Assembly: GCA_002688095.1 (NCBI GenBank)
Contig: NZCA01000004.1
Span: 38,341 to 88,656 of the forward strand
DNA from: Nanobdellota archaeon
Lineage (GTDB): Archaea; Nanobdellota; Nanobdellia; SCGC-AAA011-G17; ARS1403
DNA length: 50,316 nucleotides
Reading direction: 5' to 3'
Below the pieces are notes generated by a model, which worked only from the letters and a program-made list of their open reading frames with translations, had not been told where the DNA came from and ran no database searches. A program made the translations under genes and the position numbers. Of this stretch, positions 6,250 through 13,806 are shown piece after piece; within the stretch, counting starts at the first letter, position 1, and each line of letters opens with the position of its first letter.

Positions 6250-6326
6250 TGGTGGCCTCGAGGAGATTTGAACTCCCAACCTTTCGATTATCAGTCGAAT
6301 GCTCCACCAGATTAAGCTACAAGGCC
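6250..6326 (-). tRNA. tRNA-Ile (GAU), CCA encoded
   Basis: A full cloverleaf folds on the minus strand: acceptor GGCCTTG/CGAGGCC, D stem GCTT/GAGC, anticodon stem TTCGA/TCGAA with loop CTGATAA (anticodon GAT), T stem GGGAG/CTCCT, discriminator A, then encoded CCA. The first 15 nt overlap the 3' end of the upstream LAGLIDADG gene, whose stop codon TAA lies in the D arm. The phosphatase gene begins 5 nt after the CCA. There is no intron. Confidence 0.93.
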
Positions 6327-7130
6327 ATAATAAGAATTAATGTCTGTTTTTCCTTTTAAAATGTTTCGTCTTTCAATGATATTTGTATCTGGGGGACAGA
6401 ATCCAAATTTCTTCCATACTTGATATTTAGTTAAATGTTTGGTTGAGTTGAATCCAATTTCCTTGAACCAGAGATTTAAGTTAGATAACCCGTTTAAATC
6501 CACTGTGTTAATTTTTAACTTCTTTCCTTTTCTATAGGTAATATAATTCTTTAAACTATAAAGACCGAAATGGAGTTCTTTAAGTAGGTCAACTACTGAT
6601 TTGTGCATAAATTCACTTTCCGTCGCGAAAGTAATTGCGGAGTAATAATGTTTTTGTCTATATCTCTTTTTAAAAGTTAAACAGAATTCCGTATCTGCTA
6701 AACCTTTTAAAAAATATTTTTTTATCTTTATATTCGAATTTAAAATAATTTTGGGAATTTTGCACCCTTTCTTTGATCCTAATGGCAATTTTAAAGATTT
6801 ATTAAAAAAAGTTAATATTGCTTTTGAACGAAAATATGTTTTTAAAGAAGAGTGATTTTTTCTTTTATCTAAAATTAATTTGGTTTTTTTATTGAATAAT
6901 TTCTTAAATAAAGTTCTGATAATTTTCATATGAAATTCTTCCTCATCTATTAAATGCCCAGTATATGAAATTAAATAATCAATTGTTTTTCTCTTGTACA
7001 TATTCATACTTCCATCTCCTAGGTGTAAGCCCATAAGATAAGCCAGATCAGAAGTTAATTTTGTTGGAAGTTTTATTTCATTTCGAATATCCTTTGGAGA
7101 AAATTCGACTTTAGATAAGTCCAGTTTCAT
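6312..7130 (-). CDS. LAGLIDADG homing endonuclease between tRNA-Asn and tRNA-Ile
   Basis: 272 residues with two LAGLIDADG helices, LAYLMGLHLGDGSM near residues 29-42 and YFLKGLADTEF near the middle, each followed by a basic beta-rich segment: a single-chain two-motif homing endonuclease. Acidic residues are present in both motifs (D of GDG, D of ADT). The last codons run into tRNA-Ile and the stop is in the tRNA D arm. A TATA box (GCTTATAAAG, 7151-7160) sits about 25 nt before the ATG, so it is probably leaderless. It may use the tRNA or its flank as target; that is inference. Confidence 0.82.
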   Translation of the reverse strand: MKLDLSKVEFSPKDIRNEIKLPTKLTSDLAYLMGLHLGDGSMNMYKRKTIDYLISYTGHLIDEEEFHMKIIRTLFKKLFNKKTKLILDKRKNHSSLKTYFRSKAILTFFNKSLKLPLGSKKGCKIPKIILNSNIKIKKYFLKGLADTEFCLTFKKRYRQKHYYSAITFATESEFMHKSVVDLLKELHFGLYSLKNYITYRKGKKLKINTVDLNGLSNLNLWFKEIGFNSTKHLTKYQVWKKFGFCPPDTNIIERRNILKGKTDINSYYGLVA

Positions 7131-7205: not shown

Positions 7206-7312
7206 CGCCTCGGGCAGGACTTGAACCTACGACCTTATGATTAACAGTCATATGCTCTACCTATTGCTCGGGCCGGAATACAGGACTCAAAAACCCTCTG
7301 AGCTACCGAGGC
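7206..7312 (-). tRNA. tRNA-Asn (GUU) with a D-loop intron
   Basis: After removing 34 nt (7264-7297) the RNA folds perfectly: acceptor GCCTCGG/CCGAGGC, D arm GCTC-AGTAGGTA-GAGC, anticodon stem TATGA/TCATA with loop CTGTTAA (anticodon GTT), T stem GTAGG/CCTGC, discriminator G as expected for tRNA-Asn. CCA is not encoded, unlike the neighbouring tRNA-Ile. Without removing the insertion the D loop would be far too long. Confidence 0.92.
7264..7297 (-). other. 34-nt archaeal tRNA intron in the D loop of tRNA-Asn
   Basis: In the precursor the exon GCTC pairs with an intron GAGC (4-bp central helix). It is flanked by 3-nt bulges AGA and AAT, then an intron helix GGGTT/GGCCC that includes two G-U pairs. 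Cutting each bulge after its second base gives exactly the expected mature D loop. The outer exon helix is missing, so this is a relaxed bulge-helix-bulge motif of the kind the archaeal splicing endonuclease accepts in some lineages. The position is in the D loop, after base 15, not the usual 37/38. Confidence 0.85.
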
Positions 7313-7696: not shown

Positions 7697-8449
7697 ATGC
7701 CCAAGGCAAAAAAAAATTTAAAAGATAAATTAAGTAGAATGGAAGCTATTCCTAGATTAAAGAAGAAAAAATTAAGATTAATTTTCAGACAATTAAATGA
7801 TATTAGAGAGGAATATAACAAAGATAGGTATGAAAAACTTAAAAAGGAACTTGCAGCTTTGTGCAGGGCTCAACAGGATTTGTCAAATGAATTTGCTAAA
7901 GTTAATAACTCAAGAATGGAAGAAAAACCAGATCATAAATATTTATTTTTATTTGTGAGTGCTATGCGTGCTCTTCTAAAAGGGGGTGAAACCTATAATA
8001 AGGGGTATAAGCTTAGAAGTCCACTTATTTTTGAGATGAGTCATTTGAAAACGAATTATGAAGAATTTACCCAGAAAATGTATACTGTAGAAGGTCATGA
8101 AGCTATGTCAAAAATAAAAGAACTTTATCCAAAATTCATAAATGTAGAATTTGGATTAAGTCGTATAGGATATTTATGTGAAGAAATAAGGGGTTTAGCA
8201 AGGCATGGTATAAGAATACTAAATTCTTTAATATCCCCCACATCTATACTTAAAAAAGAAGATAGGGGATATAGGGAAGCTGTAGAAGAAGCAAAAACAC
8301 ATACGGTCGCTAATATGGGATTAGTAGAAGATTTAACCGAGGAAACAGATGTAGAAAGAAATTTAGCTAGACAATTAAAAAAAGATTTTCTATATTATGG
8401 TACAAAAGGACAGCTTGTAATTGAAAAAATTAAAGAATTAAGGGGTTAA
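7697..8449 (+). CDS. Helical protein, unknown
   Basis: 250 residues, not recognised. The N-terminal third is very basic and predicted to form coiled coils (KKKKLRLIF, YEKLKKELAALCRAQ); the remainder looks helical, with no signal peptide or membrane segment. No catalytic motif stands out. A TATA-like sequence TTTTATATTAT at 7666-7676 lies about 25 nt before the ATG, so the mRNA is probably leaderless. The stop codon falls on the tail fragment of the displaced topoisomerase VI-A gene on the other strand. It was probably the neighbour of the original topoisomerase end before the nuclease gene was inserted. Confidence 0.7.
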   Translation: MPKAKKNLKDKLSRMEAIPRLKKKKLRLIFRQLNDIREEYNKDRYEKLKKELAALCRAQQDLSNEFAKVNNSRMEEKPDHKYLFLFVSAMRALLKGGETYNKGYKLRSPLIFEMSHLKTNYEEFTQKMYTVEGHEAMSKIKELYPKFINVEFGLSRIGYLCEEIRGLARHGIRILNSLISPTSILKKEDRGYREAVEEAKTHTVANMGLVEDLTEETDVERNLARQLKKDFLYYGTKGQLVIEKIKELRG

Positions 8450-8505
8450 TCTAAGAAATCTTCAGATTTTATTTTTTCTGGAAGGTAAGTATCTGTAATG
8501 AAACT
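8446..8505 (-). pseudogene. Displaced 3' tail of the topoisomerase VI-A gene
   Basis: On the minus strand the codons read SFITDTYLPEKIKSEDFLD and then stop. The intact topoisomerase VI-A gene ends SFISEKYLPEKIKNKDFID and then stop, 14 of 19 identical by eye. Upstream of this fragment the frame soon closes. It is therefore a detached duplicate of the gene's end, now separated from the working gene by the LAGLIDADG gene at 8546-9658. The two copies differ at many third positions, so they were not made by a recent local duplication; one may come from another species. Confidence 0.75.
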
Positions 8506-8545
8506 GGGGACAATCTATTTAAAGATTAAAGTATATAAAGATACC

Positions 8546-9658
8546 ATGAAAATCAATACATTAAAGCTTGTTCCTGAAGATTGGATTATTAAAGACCTTG
8601 GCAAAAATATAGAATTATGTTACAAAGCAACAAAGGGGAAAGGTCCAAAACCATTCATTTTTCCAAAATACATCCAAATAGATGAAAAATTTATAGAAGG
8701 AATTGGATTATTTTTGGGAGATAGTGATCTAAATAGAAAAGAAAAAAACCATATTACCTACTGTTCTAAAGATAAGGACATTGCAAATCATGCTTTAAAT
8801 TTTTTAAAAAAATATTTTTTTATAGATCTTAAAGATATTACTTTTACAGTCCAATATAGACAAGAGAATAAAGGATTAAAAGAAGAATGGTCAGATTATT
8901 TGGATATTCCTAAAGAAAAAATCCTAACAAGATTTTCAGATAGACATGGAAATGAGTGTATTCATATTCAGGTTAATGGTGCCGTTTTTAGAAAAATGTT
9001 TGAAATTATTATAGAGAATTTACTTAAGATGGATTTTATGGGCAATCCTCTGCTGAGAAGATCTATTTTAAGAGGTTTATTTGCTGCAGAAGGGAATATT
9101 GGAATTGATTATAAAGAAAAGAAAGACTATGTCTCTCAAATTACTTTTGATTTACATAGAAAAGAAACGCATATAGAAAAAATAATTACTAGTTGCTTAG
9201 ATGTAGAGGATGTAAGGCACAAAGTAGTAAATCGGGAGAATAGGAATAGTAAGGAGATTATAATTTTCAACTGGAATAATTATAAAAAATTCTGGGAAAT
9301 AAGATTATTTGATCTTTGTCAAAGAAAAAAGAATAAATTCTTGGATATTATGCATAATCTTAAGGTCTCTTGTTTTTTAGAAGATGGTTATCGTAAAGAA
9401 TTGTTTAACCAGCAGAAATTAAAACAGAAAGAAATTGCTAAAATGATTAATTCTTGGCAAGGTAATGTTTCTAAGACCTTGAAGGGCGAACTTGGGATTG
9501 TTATGGAAGGATTTTGTAAACTGAATAAAAGGGTAAATTACCCTAATCCCTTGGATAAACTCATTAAGATTAATATTGGAAGTTTAACTACTTTAGAGAA
9601 TAATGAAGAAAATAAACAATTTATTGAATATTTATACCGGGTAAAATCTAATCAATAA
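8546..9658 (+). CDS. LAGLIDADG homing endonuclease inserted at the 3' end of topoisomerase VI-A
   Basis: 370 residues from ATG 8546. Two LAGLIDADG helices are seen, FIEGIGLFLGDSDL and ILRGLFAAEGNI; the acidic residues D and E are kept. The C-terminal ~100 residues include an HTH-like segment (LKQKEIAKMINSWQGNVSKT). An upstream ATG at 8498 exists, but CTATTTAAAG at 8515-8524 is well placed as a TATA box for a leaderless start at 8546, and 8498 lies inside the displaced topoisomerase tail. The stop overlaps the converging topoisomerase VI-A stop by 11 nt. This arrangement fits a mobile gene that brought a replacement tail with it. Confidence 0.85.
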   Translation: MKINTLKLVPEDWIIKDLGKNIELCYKATKGKGPKPFIFPKYIQIDEKFIEGIGLFLGDSDLNRKEKNHITYCSKDKDIANHALNFLKKYFFIDLKDITFTVQYRQENKGLKEEWSDYLDIPKEKILTRFSDRHGNECIHIQVNGAVFRKMFEIIIENLLKMDFMGNPLLRRSILRGLFAAEGNIGIDYKEKKDYVSQITFDLHRKETHIEKIITSCLDVEDVRHKVVNRENRNSKEIIIFNWNNYKKFWEIRLFDLCQRKKNKFLDIMHNLKVSCFLEDGYRKELFNQQKLKQKEIAKMINSWQGNVSKTLKGELGIVMEGFCKLNKRVNYPNPLDKLIKINIGSLTTLENNEENKQFIEYLYRVKSNQ

Positions 9659-10736
9659 AGTCCTTGTTTTTGATCTTTTCAGGGAGGTATTTTTCAGAGA
9701 TAAAACTTATTCCCTTGCTACTTAAGGCTTGTATCTCTGCCTTAGCACCCAGTTTTTTAAGTGCTGCAAATTCTTTTTGCCATGCTTTGTTATCTTTAAA
9801 CCAGGCATAATTTTGAATTTGTTTTAATCTACTTAGATCCGTATCTTTGAATTTAATTAAATGCTTTTCAAGTTTGTATTTTTCAATATCATTTGTAGTT
9901 ATTCCTAAGAATCTAACAGAAGGAATAGCCATTTTTCCTGATATGTGGGCCAAGTTAATTGAGCCAAAGCGAATAACAGAATAGATGTAATGTCCCCAAC
10001 TGTCAAGGTCAGTCAATACATAAATAGGTAACTTATGCTCTTTAGTTAATCTTTGGAGTAATCTTCGTATACCTCTTGTAGTTTGACCTTGGGAAGACAT
10101 GATGATACAATTTTGTTTTTCCCAGAATTTATCTTCATGTAATCTTTCCCATACTGCAGCCTTCTCCATATATAAAATATATTTGGCTGTGACTTTTTTG
10201 AATTTAATATCTTCAACATTAGATGGAATGGACCAACCTCCAGAACCTAATTTAGACCAATCAATTGTATCCCCTTTATCTTCAATTACAACTTTTCCCG
10301 CAACAGAACCGTTTTTATTGGCATTTACATTTAATTGTTCCCGGCTTTGATCTGTTACTAATTCTAAATCTTCTATAACGGAATCAGATTCTGGTTGGTC
10401 ATCTACAAGATTTACTTTAGTTCCTGGAATTGTTCTCTTAGCCATGTAAAAAACATCCCTTAGAGAAGCGTGTTTACCATCTTTGATTAAATTATGACTA
10501 ATGGCGGCTACTTCTAAAGTTTGTAAGAATTTTTTAGCGTGAGCAATATGGAAAAAATATCTAGCAGAGACTTTACTACCTAATTGAACTGTTTTGGTTT
10601 TTTCATCAAATTTTATATTAGATAAGGCCCTTATCGGTATGGCTATCTCAGGGTTTTTCCCTTTCTTAATTTGTTTTACAATATCCTTACCTAGATTTTC
10701 TAGAGCCAAGAGTTGTTTGTTTTTCCCTTTTGCCAT
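9648..10736 (-). CDS. top6A: DNA topoisomerase VI subunit A
   Basis: The Spo11-like strand-cutting subunit of the type IIB topoisomerase. 362 residues, normal length. The catalytic tyrosine is Y97 in SLRDVFYMAKRT. The Toprim domain shows the glutamate in MEKAAVWERL and the acidic motif DLDSWGHYI. Translation starts inside the end of subunit B (50-nt overlap in another frame), so the two are translationally coupled. The last ~19 codons are duplicated on the far side of the LAGLIDADG gene, so the present C-terminus may be a replacement. The nearby sequence is otherwise continuous, so the enzyme should be functional. Confidence 0.95.
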   Translation of the reverse strand: MAKGKNKQLLALENLGKDIVKQIKKGKNPEIAIPIRALSNIKFDEKTKTVQLGSKVSARYFFHIAHAKKFLQTLEVAAISHNLIKDGKHASLRDVFYMAKRTIPGTKVNLVDDQPESDSVIEDLELVTDQSREQLNVNANKNGSVAGKVVIEDKGDTIDWSKLGSGGWSIPSNVEDIKFKKVTAKYILYMEKAAVWERLHEDKFWEKQNCIIMSSQGQTTRGIRRLLQRLTKEHKLPIYVLTDLDSWGHYIYSVIRFGSINLAHISGKMAIPSVRFLGITTNDIEKYKLEKHLIKFKDTDLSRLKQIQNYAWFKDNKAWQKEFAALKKLGAKAEIQALSSKGISFISEKYLPEKIKNKDFID

Positions 10737-13700
10737 GTTTTTTTACCTTTTTAGTGGAACTTGTCCTCTTTACTTCAGTTTTTTTTGTTGGTTTTTTAAT
10801 TTCTTTCTTTTCTTTGTGAACGTTCTTTTTTTGCGGGGTTGAAAGGGGCGCATCCCCTTCTTCTTCTGGAATTAAATCCTTTAAAGATTTTTTTAAGGTT
10901 TTAGTTAATTTAGATGTTATTTGGTCTTTATTTTCTTTAGTTAGTCTATTTAAAGAGGAAGCTATTTCGGGTATAAATTTTTCAAATAATCCTGCTCTTT
11001 CTTTTTGTTCTCTAACCCTAACTGTTTTTCTAATATGGGAGGCTAATTTTCTACCACATTCTTGAATAGCTAATTTAATTTGTTTAATAATTTCGGGATA
11101 ATGGGCTATGGCTTCTTTAGATTCGGATGTAAACGGAACCCAAACAGAGGCCATGTGAATTACAAGCAAAACAGGTCCTACAGGTAGTGCACCCCGTGAT
11201 TGAGACATATTATAGTTTCTCCAATTTGTTTCAATTACCGATTTTGTTATAGCGCAGGCGGATTGTTGATATTGCAAAGGAACCCTATTAGCAAATCTAA
11301 GCAAGGTCATTGATTTATCAGAAGGTATTTGTCCTCCAAATGCAATGCAAGTTTCTATTTGAAAGGGGTTACCCCTATAAACAGAAGCTGGACGAGTTAC
11401 GGAAGCAAAAAATTCTCCGGGGATTTCTTTTTCCATAGAAGTTTGAAGAGCTTCAGCTCCGATTGGAGATAAACAATTAGTAGGAGGGGCAATTAATTTG
11501 GTGTTTTGAATAGCTTTGTAAAGTTTTTCAGCGTGATCCCTATCTAACTCTTTTGGTTTCATGGAAGGTTTGAATTCTATCTGTTCACAAACTTTTTTTA
11601 CCGTTTTAGAACTTAGTCTTATGAATTCTTTTGTTAAGAAAGCAGTTAATGTTTTAGCAGAAGTAGATTTTAACATGGAAATAAAAATGCCTAGTTCAAT
11701 TCCATGAGGGTGAGGTTTAATTTCCTTAGGTTCTACAGGTAATTGTTCAGAAGCTCTTGGGTAATGGACACGTTTGTTTTCAGGATCTATATAAGTTAAT
11801 TCTGCATGAGGATTAGCAATAACAGTCTGTTTTAGATATTCATCTACACCTCTAATGCCTTTTTGATAGATAGCTTCCATCTCTATTTCTACATTTATTC
11901 CATGGTCTTGATCCCAAGGGACTTCTTTATCTACAAGAATTTCTGGTTCGTTGTTTTTAGTATCTATTTTTAATTCATAATAATGGGCGGGTTTGTTTTT
12001 TCCTATTTTAGAAATAATTCTAGCTGGTTTTCCAGTTGTTAATTGACCGTATAAAACAGCTGCAGAGATTCCAATACCCTGTTGTCCTCTTGTGTTGTGA
12101 CAAGAAATACCTCCAAGGCCCCCTACAAAATTCTCACAATAAGGAACAGATAAATCGTAAACGTGCTCGTAACCTTTTTTGATTATTTCAATTTCTTTTA
12201 CTTGTAATAAGGATAAATCTTTGTGTATTAGTTGTTGAACAATTCTTTTAGATCCAGGATTAATATTGCATGAAAATTCTTTTGATTTTTCAATATCTTT
12301 TCCATATACATTAATGGAGTAAGCTTTAGATGGAAACTTTCCTAGTCCTTTGTTAATTCTTGGTTGTATAGAGGCCAGAACTCCTTGCATTAGCCAAAGG
12401 TAAAGAGTTTCATTAGCTAATTTTTTACTTGAAGTAGTTAGCATTAATTGATTTCTATTTTTTGTATTATGTCCATCTCCTTGATACAATGCATCTAAGA
12501 AGGTTTGTCTTAATTCTTGATTTGTTCTAAATATGAATTCTGGAATCTTTTTGTTTTTAGCACCCTTTCCGCAGAGATTTTTTATTAATTTTGTAAAAAT
12601 ATTTCCAAATAATTTAATTCTTATGATGGTTTCTCGTGGTTCAATGGTGAAGTTTAGCCCGAAGATTCTTGAGAAATTTATTATTTCATTAACGAATTTA
12701 TCTTCCTGCTTTCCAAATGTTAATCCTATCTGTCTTTTATCAAAATGTCCTTCTGCTACATAAAATCCTAGAAATTTGATAAATTCCTTGGTTAGGGGAA
12801 GTGTGATTGGGACTGTTGTTTCTTTTCCGTGTTGATAGGTTTTTATTATACAATCCTTTACTTTATTTTTTAAGTTTAATTTGTAAATAAGATGGAGTGG
12901 TAAAAATTGCTTTGTCTCGTATTGTTTAAGGCTGTCATCTAAAATATCTATTCCTTTAATTCTATAGAATCTTCTGCTCTTTGAAGTTTTTTTATGAATA
13001 ATTTCTGCTTTTTCTTTGATATTTCTTATTACTTTTTCTGGAATGTTATAAACGTACATCCAATTCTTTTCTATATCTTTTAGTGAGATATAATCTAAGA
13101 TGTTTATTTCTTTTAGATTCTCTATTTCAGGAAGTTTTGAAGGAACTAAAAGTTTGTCTCCTTGTTTTAATTTTCTAGCTTCTACTTCTTTTATGATTCC
13201 ATTTTCAGAGGTAAATAAACTATGACAACCCGTTACTTTTATTTCTCTATTTGTAGCTAATTTTACTTTTATAATTTCATTTCTTCTTTTATGTTTAATT
13301 ACTTGGCTAACTTTCCTAAATTTATAAGAATGGGTACTTTTGTCAAAACAAGGGACTTTTAGATCAAATACTTCTTTTTCTCCTTCTTGGTTTTTAATAT
13401 AATTAGCGATTAAGTCTCCGATTGGTGAGAGTTCTATTTTTCCTTTTCTCTTTACCATAACTGGTTCGTCGTGTGTTAGAGACTGTGCTAGTTTGAAAAA
13501 TTTAGAACCATATAATAATCTGGCAAAGATAAAGGGGATTTGTTTTTTTACAATTCCCGGCCCGTTGTCAGTTATGGAAATCAAGTATCTTTCTTCTTGT
13601 AATTGTTTTATTTTTACTTTAATTATGGGAAGAATCTTGGCTTCTTGGCAAGCATCTAAAGAATTATCTACTGCTTCTTTTATAGTGGTTAATAAGGCTC

Positions 13701-13806
13701 TTCGAGGATTGTCAAAACCCAATAAATGTCTGTTTCTAGTGAAGAATTCTGAGACTGAAATTGACTGTTGCTTTTTTGCTAATTCGTCTGCAATAGTTTT
13801 TGCCAT
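10687..13806 (-). CDS. top6B: DNA topoisomerase VI subunit B, interrupted by an intein
   Basis: ATPase subunit of topoisomerase VI. The precursor is 1039 residues; after removal of a 463-residue intein the protein is 576 residues, typical for the family. GHKL ATPase motifs: EAVDNSLDA (about 44-52), DNGPGI (80-85), and the lid GSKFFKLAQ joined to TRGQQGIGISAAVLYGQL across the intein. The transducer domain follows, then a Lys/Arg-rich tail of about 70 residues that overlaps subunit A's start. ATP binding dimerises B and drives strand passage by A. Expression of active enzyme depends on splicing. Confidence 0.96.
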   Translation of the reverse strand: MAKTIADELAKKQQSISVSEFFTRNRHLLGFDNPRRALLTTIKEAVDNSLDACQEAKILPIIKVKIKQLQEERYLISITDNGPGIVKKQIPFIFARLLYGSKFFKLAQSLTHDEPVMVKRKGKIELSPIGDLIANYIKNQEGEKEVFDLKVPCFDKSTHSYKFRKVSQVIKHKRRNEIIKVKLATNREIKVTGCHSLFTSENGIIKEVEARKLKQGDKLLVPSKLPEIENLKEINILDYISLKDIEKNWMYVYNIPEKVIRNIKEKAEIIHKKTSKSRRFYRIKGIDILDDSLKQYETKQFLPLHLIYKLNLKNKVKDCIIKTYQHGKETTVPITLPLTKEFIKFLGFYVAEGHFDKRQIGLTFGKQEDKFVNEIINFSRIFGLNFTIEPRETIIRIKLFGNIFTKLIKNLCGKGAKNKKIPEFIFRTNQELRQTFLDALYQGDGHNTKNRNQLMLTTSSKKLANETLYLWLMQGVLASIQPRINKGLGKFPSKAYSINVYGKDIEKSKEFSCNINPGSKRIVQQLIHKDLSLLQVKEIEIIKKGYEHVYDLSVPYCENFVGGLGGISCHNTRGQQGIGISAAVLYGQLTTGKPARIISKIGKNKPAHYYELKIDTKNNEPEILVDKEVPWDQDHGINVEIEMEAIYQKGIRGVDEYLKQTVIANPHAELTYIDPENKRVHYPRASEQLPVEPKEIKPHPHGIELGIFISMLKSTSAKTLTAFLTKEFIRLSSKTVKKVCEQIEFKPSMKPKELDRDHAEKLYKAIQNTKLIAPPTNCLSPIGAEALQTSMEKEIPGEFFASVTRPASVYRGNPFQIETCIAFGGQIPSDKSMTLLRFANRVPLQYQQSACAITKSVIETNWRNYNMSQSRGALPVGPVLLVIHMASVWVPFTSESKEAIAHYPEIIKQIKLAIQECGRKLASHIRKTVRVREQKERAGLFEKFIPEIASSLNRLTKENKDQITSKLTKTLKKSLKDLIPEEEGDAPLSTPQKKNVHKEKKEIKKPTKKTEVKRTSSTKKVKKHGKREKQTTLGSRKSR
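12094..13482 (-). mobile_element. Intein with LAGLIDADG endonuclease in topoisomerase VI-B
   Basis: Residues 109-571 of the precursor. It begins SLTHDEPV with Ser as first nucleophile, has a block-B-like TGCHSLF, two LAGLIDADG helices (LGFYVAEGH about 346-354; FLDALYQGDG about 436-445), block F YEHVYDLSVP and ends ISCHN with Thr as the +1 extein residue. All residues needed for splicing are present. It is inserted in the ATP-lid motif between KLAQ and TRGQQG, a strictly conserved site. It has both splicing and nuclease blocks, so it is a complete mobile intein by inspection. Confidence 0.93.

Follow-up and report, generated by a model that had tools for sequence, protein, structure and literature searches.

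A LAGLIDADG nuclease gene between two copies of the topoisomerase VI-A 3' end in a Nanobdellota archaeon: a probable tail-replacing homing element

We analyzed a stretch of 50,316 nucleotides from the genome of a Nanobdellota archaeon (hereafter the window). In all probability (about 0.86), positions 8506-9707 constitute a tail-replacing homing element, in which a gene for a LAGLIDADG endonuclease is coupled to a donor-derived 3' end of the topoisomerase VI subunit A (topo VI-A) gene. The observations are the anatomy of the locus, empty sites in relatives, recurrence at nearly the same breakpoint in other genomes, and clades of the nuclease that are specific for their target genes.

Anatomy of the topoisomerase VI-A locus

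The genome of the window contains one copy of topo VI-A (Table 1). The initial annotation, made from the sequence alone, had noted a second topo VI-A tail on the same strand about 1.1 kb off, with a LAGLIDADG gene filling the gap exactly, and both points were borne out. In an ungapped BLOSUM62 comparison over six frames of the whole 50-kb window, the displaced fragment scored 75 vs 26 for the next best match, and its frame is intact up to the stop. The nuclease stop and the topoisomerase stop overlap by 11 nt. At its other end, the nuclease gene starts 40 nt from the displaced tail, which overlaps the stop of the convergent neighbour gene by 4 nt. The two tails have 65% of their nucleotides in common over 19 codons, the differences at codon positions 1, 2 and 3 being 4, 2 and 14, respectively. 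The predominance of third-position differences indicates that both tails evolved under coding constraint before one of them was displaced. The donor tract of the attached tail may start about five codons farther upstream (SSKGI).

Table 1. Coordinates of the features at topo VI-A in the window and at the other loci described in the text
Feature	Location	Strand	Basis or remark
topo VI-A gene (target), intact, 362 aa	window 9648..10736	-	Pfam TP6A_N, Topo_VI_alpha, TOP6A-Spo11_Toprim
Attached (replacement) tail, SFISEKYLPEKIKNKDFID*	window 9648..9707	-	last 60 nt nearer G001/G006 than G005/G002
Predicted gene for a LAGLIDADG homing endonuclease (370 aa); converges on topo VI-A	window 8546..9658	+	motifs, PDB profile, AlphaFold, Foldseek
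Short leader ahead of the nuclease ORF, probably its promoter region	window 8506..8545	+	position only; starts of relatives align with ATG 8546
Displaced original topo VI-A tail, SFITDTYLPEKIKSEDFLD*, 19 codons and stop	window 8446..8505	-	score; nearest tail that of G005; neighbour overlap
Convergent neighbour gene, 250 aa, without Pfam family; marks ancestral end of topo VI-A	window 7697..8449	+	position and orientation as in G005, G002, G007
Topoisomerase VI-B gene with intein	window 10687-13806	-	Pfam Intein_splicing, LAGLIDADG_3
LAG2, LAGLIDADG-like ORF, 272 aa	window 6312-7130	-	between tRNA-Asn-like gene and tRNA-Ile
tRNA-Asn-like gene	window 7214-7268		interrupted in 5' part
Tail swap at type III RuBisCO gene	G000:C9:73764-76208 (L083 4765-7209)		genome of the window
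Convergent nuclease gene at RuBisCO	L083 4900-6006
Displaced RuBisCO tail, TKVYSQKHKELKSALAKW	L083 4765-4836	-
DGR reverse-transcriptase ORF of G008	L038 5585-6802	-	ends in frame with displaced topo VI-A tail
Duplicated SRP54 3' end of G035	L208 5718-12423	+

The protein encoded by the nuclease gene gave no significant Pfam match. It contains two motifs, GLFLGDSD and LRGLFAAEG, and in alignment A1 E182 is invariant and D59 nearly so, providing one acidic residue per LAGLIDADG motif. We take D59 and E182 to be the counterparts of the I-DmoI catalytic pair. A profile of the nuclease relatives matched I-HjeMI, I-AniI and 1dq3 in the PDB. The AlphaFold model (pLDDT 89.4, pTM 0.86) matched LAGLIDADG proteins in Foldseek at E values of 1e-5 to 1e-6, namely I-DmoI, I-AniI, I-Tsp061I and VMA inteins, and also WhiA; TM-scores were modest, about 0.3-0.38 with normalisation to the query. 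Judged from sequence and model, the ORF has the LAGLIDADG fold with its two motifs and is a LAGLIDADG homing endonuclease, presumably able to cleave DNA. An in-frame ATG upstream at 8498 was considered as its start and rejected, since it has no support from the relatives in alignment A1; the start is ATG 8546.

The topoisomerase VI-B gene of this operon contains an intein that includes a LAGLIDADG domain, so that both topoisomerase VI subunits have been struck by homing elements. The window also holds the LAGLIDADG-like ORF LAG2, whose stop overlaps the tRNA-Ile. Homologues of LAG2 are located downstream of topo VI-A in G049, G037, G008, G021 and G002.

Empty sites, repeated events and the origin of the two tails

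In G005, the closest relative (84% at the amino acid level), topo VI-A has no nuclease gene and overlaps a convergent 250-aa gene by 4 nt. G002 and G007 likewise have an intact topo VI-A that lacks the nuclease and overlaps a similar convergent gene, the neighbour being 250-273 aa long across the three genomes. The empty site that the initial annotation had proposed to look for is therefore present in three relatives, with topo VI-A directly against the convergent neighbour. In a five-sequence search, the neighbour protein of the window matched those of G007 and G002 at E values of about 1e-5 to 1e-7, and G007 was clearly linked to G003 and G002, with G005 only weakly linked. By these comparisons the neighbour proteins evolve fast. 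The homology of the G005 neighbour being weak, its equivalence to that of the window was judged by position, orientation, length and overlap. The displaced tail meets the neighbour as the intact gene does in G005, which argues that the fragment marks where topo VI-A once ended.

The event was not confined to the window. G008, which belongs to another family, carries on a 536-kb contig an intact nuclease gene (52% identical), a diversity-generating retroelement (DGR), which mutagenizes at adenines, and a displaced topo VI-A tail, and represents a second event, with an element of 3.4 kb as compared with 1.1 kb in the window. The attached and displaced tails of G008 differ 1, 1 and 15 times at codon positions 1, 2 and 3. 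Its displaced tail is followed after 258 nt by the LAG2 gene. In G049, of the same family as G008, an intact topo VI-A is followed after 237 nt by LAG2 (58% identical), and G037 has this same gene order. G049 and G037 are the empty site for the G008 event. A third event was found in G003, from the family of the window, in which a displaced tail beside the neighbour gene is accompanied by a C-terminal nuclease relic; between the two lies a protein resembling the variable protein of the G008 DGR, a DGR-like relic. A divergent topo VI-A with a shorter displaced tail (score 47) occurs in G308, and homologous nucleases adjoin the 3' end of topo VI-A in G308 itself and in G121, G296, G244, G186, G194, G239 and G033. 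A second topo match in G041 was considered as a displaced tail and turned out to be a contig break. In G008, the reverse-transcriptase ORF of the DGR runs in frame into the displaced tail, so that the old gene end is now the C-terminus of the reverse transcriptase.

In the window, G003 and G008 the displaced tails begin at positions only a few codons apart, which indicates a fixed cut near codon -19/-20. This bears on the possibility that an ordinary intergenic homing gene trimmed or duplicated gene ends upon insertion through error-prone repair, the tail being a by-product outside the mobile unit. Whereas most nuclease-adjacent loci have no displaced tail, as suits such a by-product, the near-coincidence of the starting codon in three genomes points to a fixed cut within the coding sequence, and the attached tails retain their full length and reading frame and have diverged at silent sites. 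We consider the by-product explanation highly unlikely.

If the attached tail replaced the original one, the displaced tail should be nearer to a nuclease-free relative than the attached tail is, a check proposed in the initial annotation. Such was the result: among 34 relatives the best match of the displaced tail is G005, with 46/57 nt, as compared with 41/57 nt between the attached tail and G005. The best matches of the attached tail are G001 and G006 (48/57 nt), though the gene bodies are only 62-64% identical. Over the last 60 nt of the gene, 50/60 are shared with G001/G006 vs 43/60 with G005/G002, the reverse of the gene-body affinity. When the two sets of relatives are contrasted, the difference amounts to +6 to +9 per 60 nt at the gene end; elsewhere in topo VI-A it has a mean of -7.6 (s.d. 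3.3) and a maximum of +1.2. In control genes, tails being conserved, the contrast reached +4.5. Tail identity across 35 topo VI-A genes was dropped as a donor test, since 57 nt carry too little signal and control tails track body identity weakly. Owing to these two control results, we grade the foreign origin of the attached tail, from another species as donor, as probable only. The earlier argument from third-position divergence to a donor of another species is thus upheld in part: the reversed affinity of the gene end speaks for it, but 57 nt is short and the origin is probable, not proven. In general, tails of 14-34 codons are too short for firm phylogeny, and for the RuBisCO and SRP54 tails the relatives are too distant or the sequence is of low complexity.

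The nuclease family at other genes and its DGR cargo

Relatives of the nuclease were sought in 371 and 378 related genomes and by a GTDB scan, and the junctions were read from MAG assemblies. Nearly all GTDB matches fell in Woesearchaeota/Nanoarchaeia MAGs, and two weak ones in Hadesarchaea. A viral origin of the elements was rejected, viral contigs giving one weak match. Members of the family adjoin the 3' end of topo VI-A, RuBisCO, SRP54, PEP synthase, glycyl-type tRNA synthetase (GlyRS), uS9, Hef-type helicase, LonB or GatD. A displaced tail was detected at five of them: topo VI-A, RuBisCO (in the genome of the window, as a second tail swap), SRP54 (G052), PEP synthase (G149 and G166) and GlyRS (G262). 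In G166 (L151) the displaced PEP-synthase tail forms the end of the nuclease ORF. The attached and displaced tails of a pair share 48-77% of their nucleotides overall, with differences mostly at third positions; for ppsA of G149 the differences are 11, 4 and 21 at codon positions 1, 2 and 3. The uS9 gene adjoins a nuclease of the same superfamily at its 3' end in four genomes (L144, L161, L174 and L156), and no displaced tail was found at these loci.

The association was quantified by counting tail copies within 5 kb. They were present for 8/30 genes pointing at the nuclease vs 3/147 other genes in the same loci (Fisher p = 3e-5), and two of the latter three are DGR repeats. No displaced tail was detected for 22 of the 30 nuclease-adjacent genes, a set that includes non-target neighbours, nor by scan or reading of the distal frames at G121, G033, G049 RuBisCO, G244 and G186. 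At such loci the tails may have been lost, may be too short for detection, or may not always be left.

In a tree of 32 nucleases, grouping by target gene is perfect. The tree requires 9 label changes, which is the minimum; shuffled labels gave a mean of 20.6, and 0/200 shuffles were as low. From this split, each nuclease clade appears bound to one target gene. These results weigh on a simpler scenario, in which a local duplication of the tail, such as unequal exchange within the lineage would produce, was followed by the arrival of the nuclease gene between the copies. Such duplications are common, need no donor and would give copies and spacing of similar appearance. The scenario requires, however, that the coincidence be repeated at topo VI-A, RuBisCO, SRP54, ppsA and GlyRS, each time with a member of one nuclease superfamily in between, and it leaves the diverged state of the attached copy and the target-specific clades unexplained. 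It is in our estimate very improbable.

Some of the elements carry additional genes. The stretch between the nuclease gene and the displaced tail contains a DGR (reverse transcriptase, variable proteins and template repeat) in G008 and G052, and with the relic of G003 three elements have a DGR or its remnant in that place. The reverse transcriptase belongs to Pfam RVT_1. All mismatches between template and variable repeats fall at template adenines, 13/13 in G008 and 18/18 and 18/18 in G052; both loci thus combine a reverse transcriptase with the adenine-specific repeat differences that define a DGR. A reverse transcriptase gene comes after the nuclease gene in G121, where no displaced tail was found. 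The window element has no DGR, and no related reverse transcriptase was found in the genome of the window. DGR loci in general were considered as carriers of tail swaps and rejected: 20 other DGR loci were scanned and lacked this anatomy, with one tail duplication, at SRP54 of G035, that has no nuclease. Since such reverse transcriptases occur in 44/103 genomes of the order and the 20 other DGR loci lack the arrangement of nuclease and displaced tail, we regard the DGR, on present sequences, as occasional cargo and not as the engine of the element.

In G035 about 160 nt of the SRP54 3' end are duplicated 5.2 kb downstream (89% nt identity). The insert between the copies has genes resembling AbiEi/AbiEii and none of this nuclease family, and a DGR is located just upstream of SRP54. 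This 5-kb insert lends some weight to the explanation that a site-specific integrase put the element into the topo VI-A 3' end and restored the tail, the integrase gene being lost later, as restoration of gene ends is well known for integrases. Reading of the ORFs in the 1.1-kb window element and the 3.4-kb G008 element, however, revealed no integrase or recombinase, tail copies that are only 48-77% alike are unlike att cores, and the nuclease is the constant component, in clades specific for the target gene. An integrase origin of the element is exceedingly improbable.

Proposed mechanism and comparison with known systems

For the tail-replacing homing element we infer the following steps from sequence. 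The nuclease probably cuts an intact topo VI-A about 19-20 codons ahead of the stop. Repair off an element-bearing copy, probably from another species, would join the recipient gene body to the donor tail and the nuclease gene. The old tail would be shoved beyond the nuclease gene and left as a non-functional relic beside its original neighbour. The replacement tail would keep the protein whole, and its silent-site differences should resist re-cleavage. The initial annotation had suggested that the element brought its own conserved tail so that the essential gene survives the insertion, and the empty sites, the repeat events and the native position of the displaced tail support this idea. A broader reading is that tail-replacing homing elements are a general selfish class in DPANN archaea, with target-specific clades that swap the last 15-35 codons of conserved genes and serve as vehicles giving otherwise non-autonomous DGRs interspecies transfer. 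We put this forward tentatively and think it somewhat doubtful.

Elements of this kind would matter in several respects. Alongside introns and inteins, they would be a third means by which a homing gene can reside in an essential archaeal gene, one that needs no splicing. Replaced tails would be short mosaic segments in conserved genes, phylogenetic markers included, and the recurrent DGR cargo suggests how DGRs spread among small-genome archaea. Each pair of native and attached tails is a ready-made cleavage assay. In the open-access full text we found no description of archaeal tail-replacing homing genes, nor of homing nucleases with topoisomerase VI or with DGRs; earlier reports elsewhere are possible.

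In gene-end logic the elements resemble phage 21 in icd, an integrative element that restores the 3' end of its target gene and leaves the old end at the far side. Phage 21 is driven by a recombinase and uses a conserved att core, whereas neither was found in the archaeal elements. With archaeal inteins and intron-encoded enzymes (I-DmoI, I-Tsp061I, VMA inteins) they share the fold and the two-motif LAGLIDADG core. Those enzymes avert damage by protein or RNA splicing, whereas here tail replacement would keep the host gene whole.

The initial annotation had pointed to fungal mitochondria. In Glomus and Allomyces, mobile ORFs combine an endonuclease ORF with a donor C-terminus and have displaced the native one by about 1 kb in the downstream direction; inserted and native tails in Glomus have 64-81% nt identity, and the native ones match relatives (PMC3630166). 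This anatomy, with one tail attached and a second displaced past the nuclease gene, matches what we observed. The fungal ORFs, however, are mitochondrial, reside in respiratory genes and are sometimes in phase with the host gene, whereas the elements described here are in an archaeal chromosome and their nuclease gene is often convergent. The mitochondrial parallel therefore holds for the anatomy, but yeast WHO elements are the closer analogue, and the phenomenon is wider than topoisomerase VI. In the WHO model a nuclease gene and a resistance-conferring 3' end move as one unit, and in Torulaspora and Lachancea each integration swaps the FBA1 3' end and pushes the old end outward, where the fragments decay (PMC7282813, eLife 2020;9:e55336). 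Both systems place a LAGLIDADG-superfamily nuclease gene beside the 3' end of an essential gene, with the displaced old end beyond. WHO proteins resemble inteins and have a zinc finger, and WHO elements mostly use one target gene, in eukaryotic nuclei, with a replaced 3' end of about 400 bp. The archaeal elements, in contrast, encode two-motif LAGLIDADG proteins without a detected intein splicing domain, use several targets with tails of 14-34 codons, occur in both orientations to the target and in some cases carry a DGR. Pfam detected neither intein nor zinc-finger domains in the window protein or the G008 protein (LAGLIDADG_3 only in the latter), and for this reason we regard the archaeal elements, by their sequences, as an analogue of WHO and not a member of that family. 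They would extend to prokaryotes a mechanism of yeast nuclei and fungal mitochondria.
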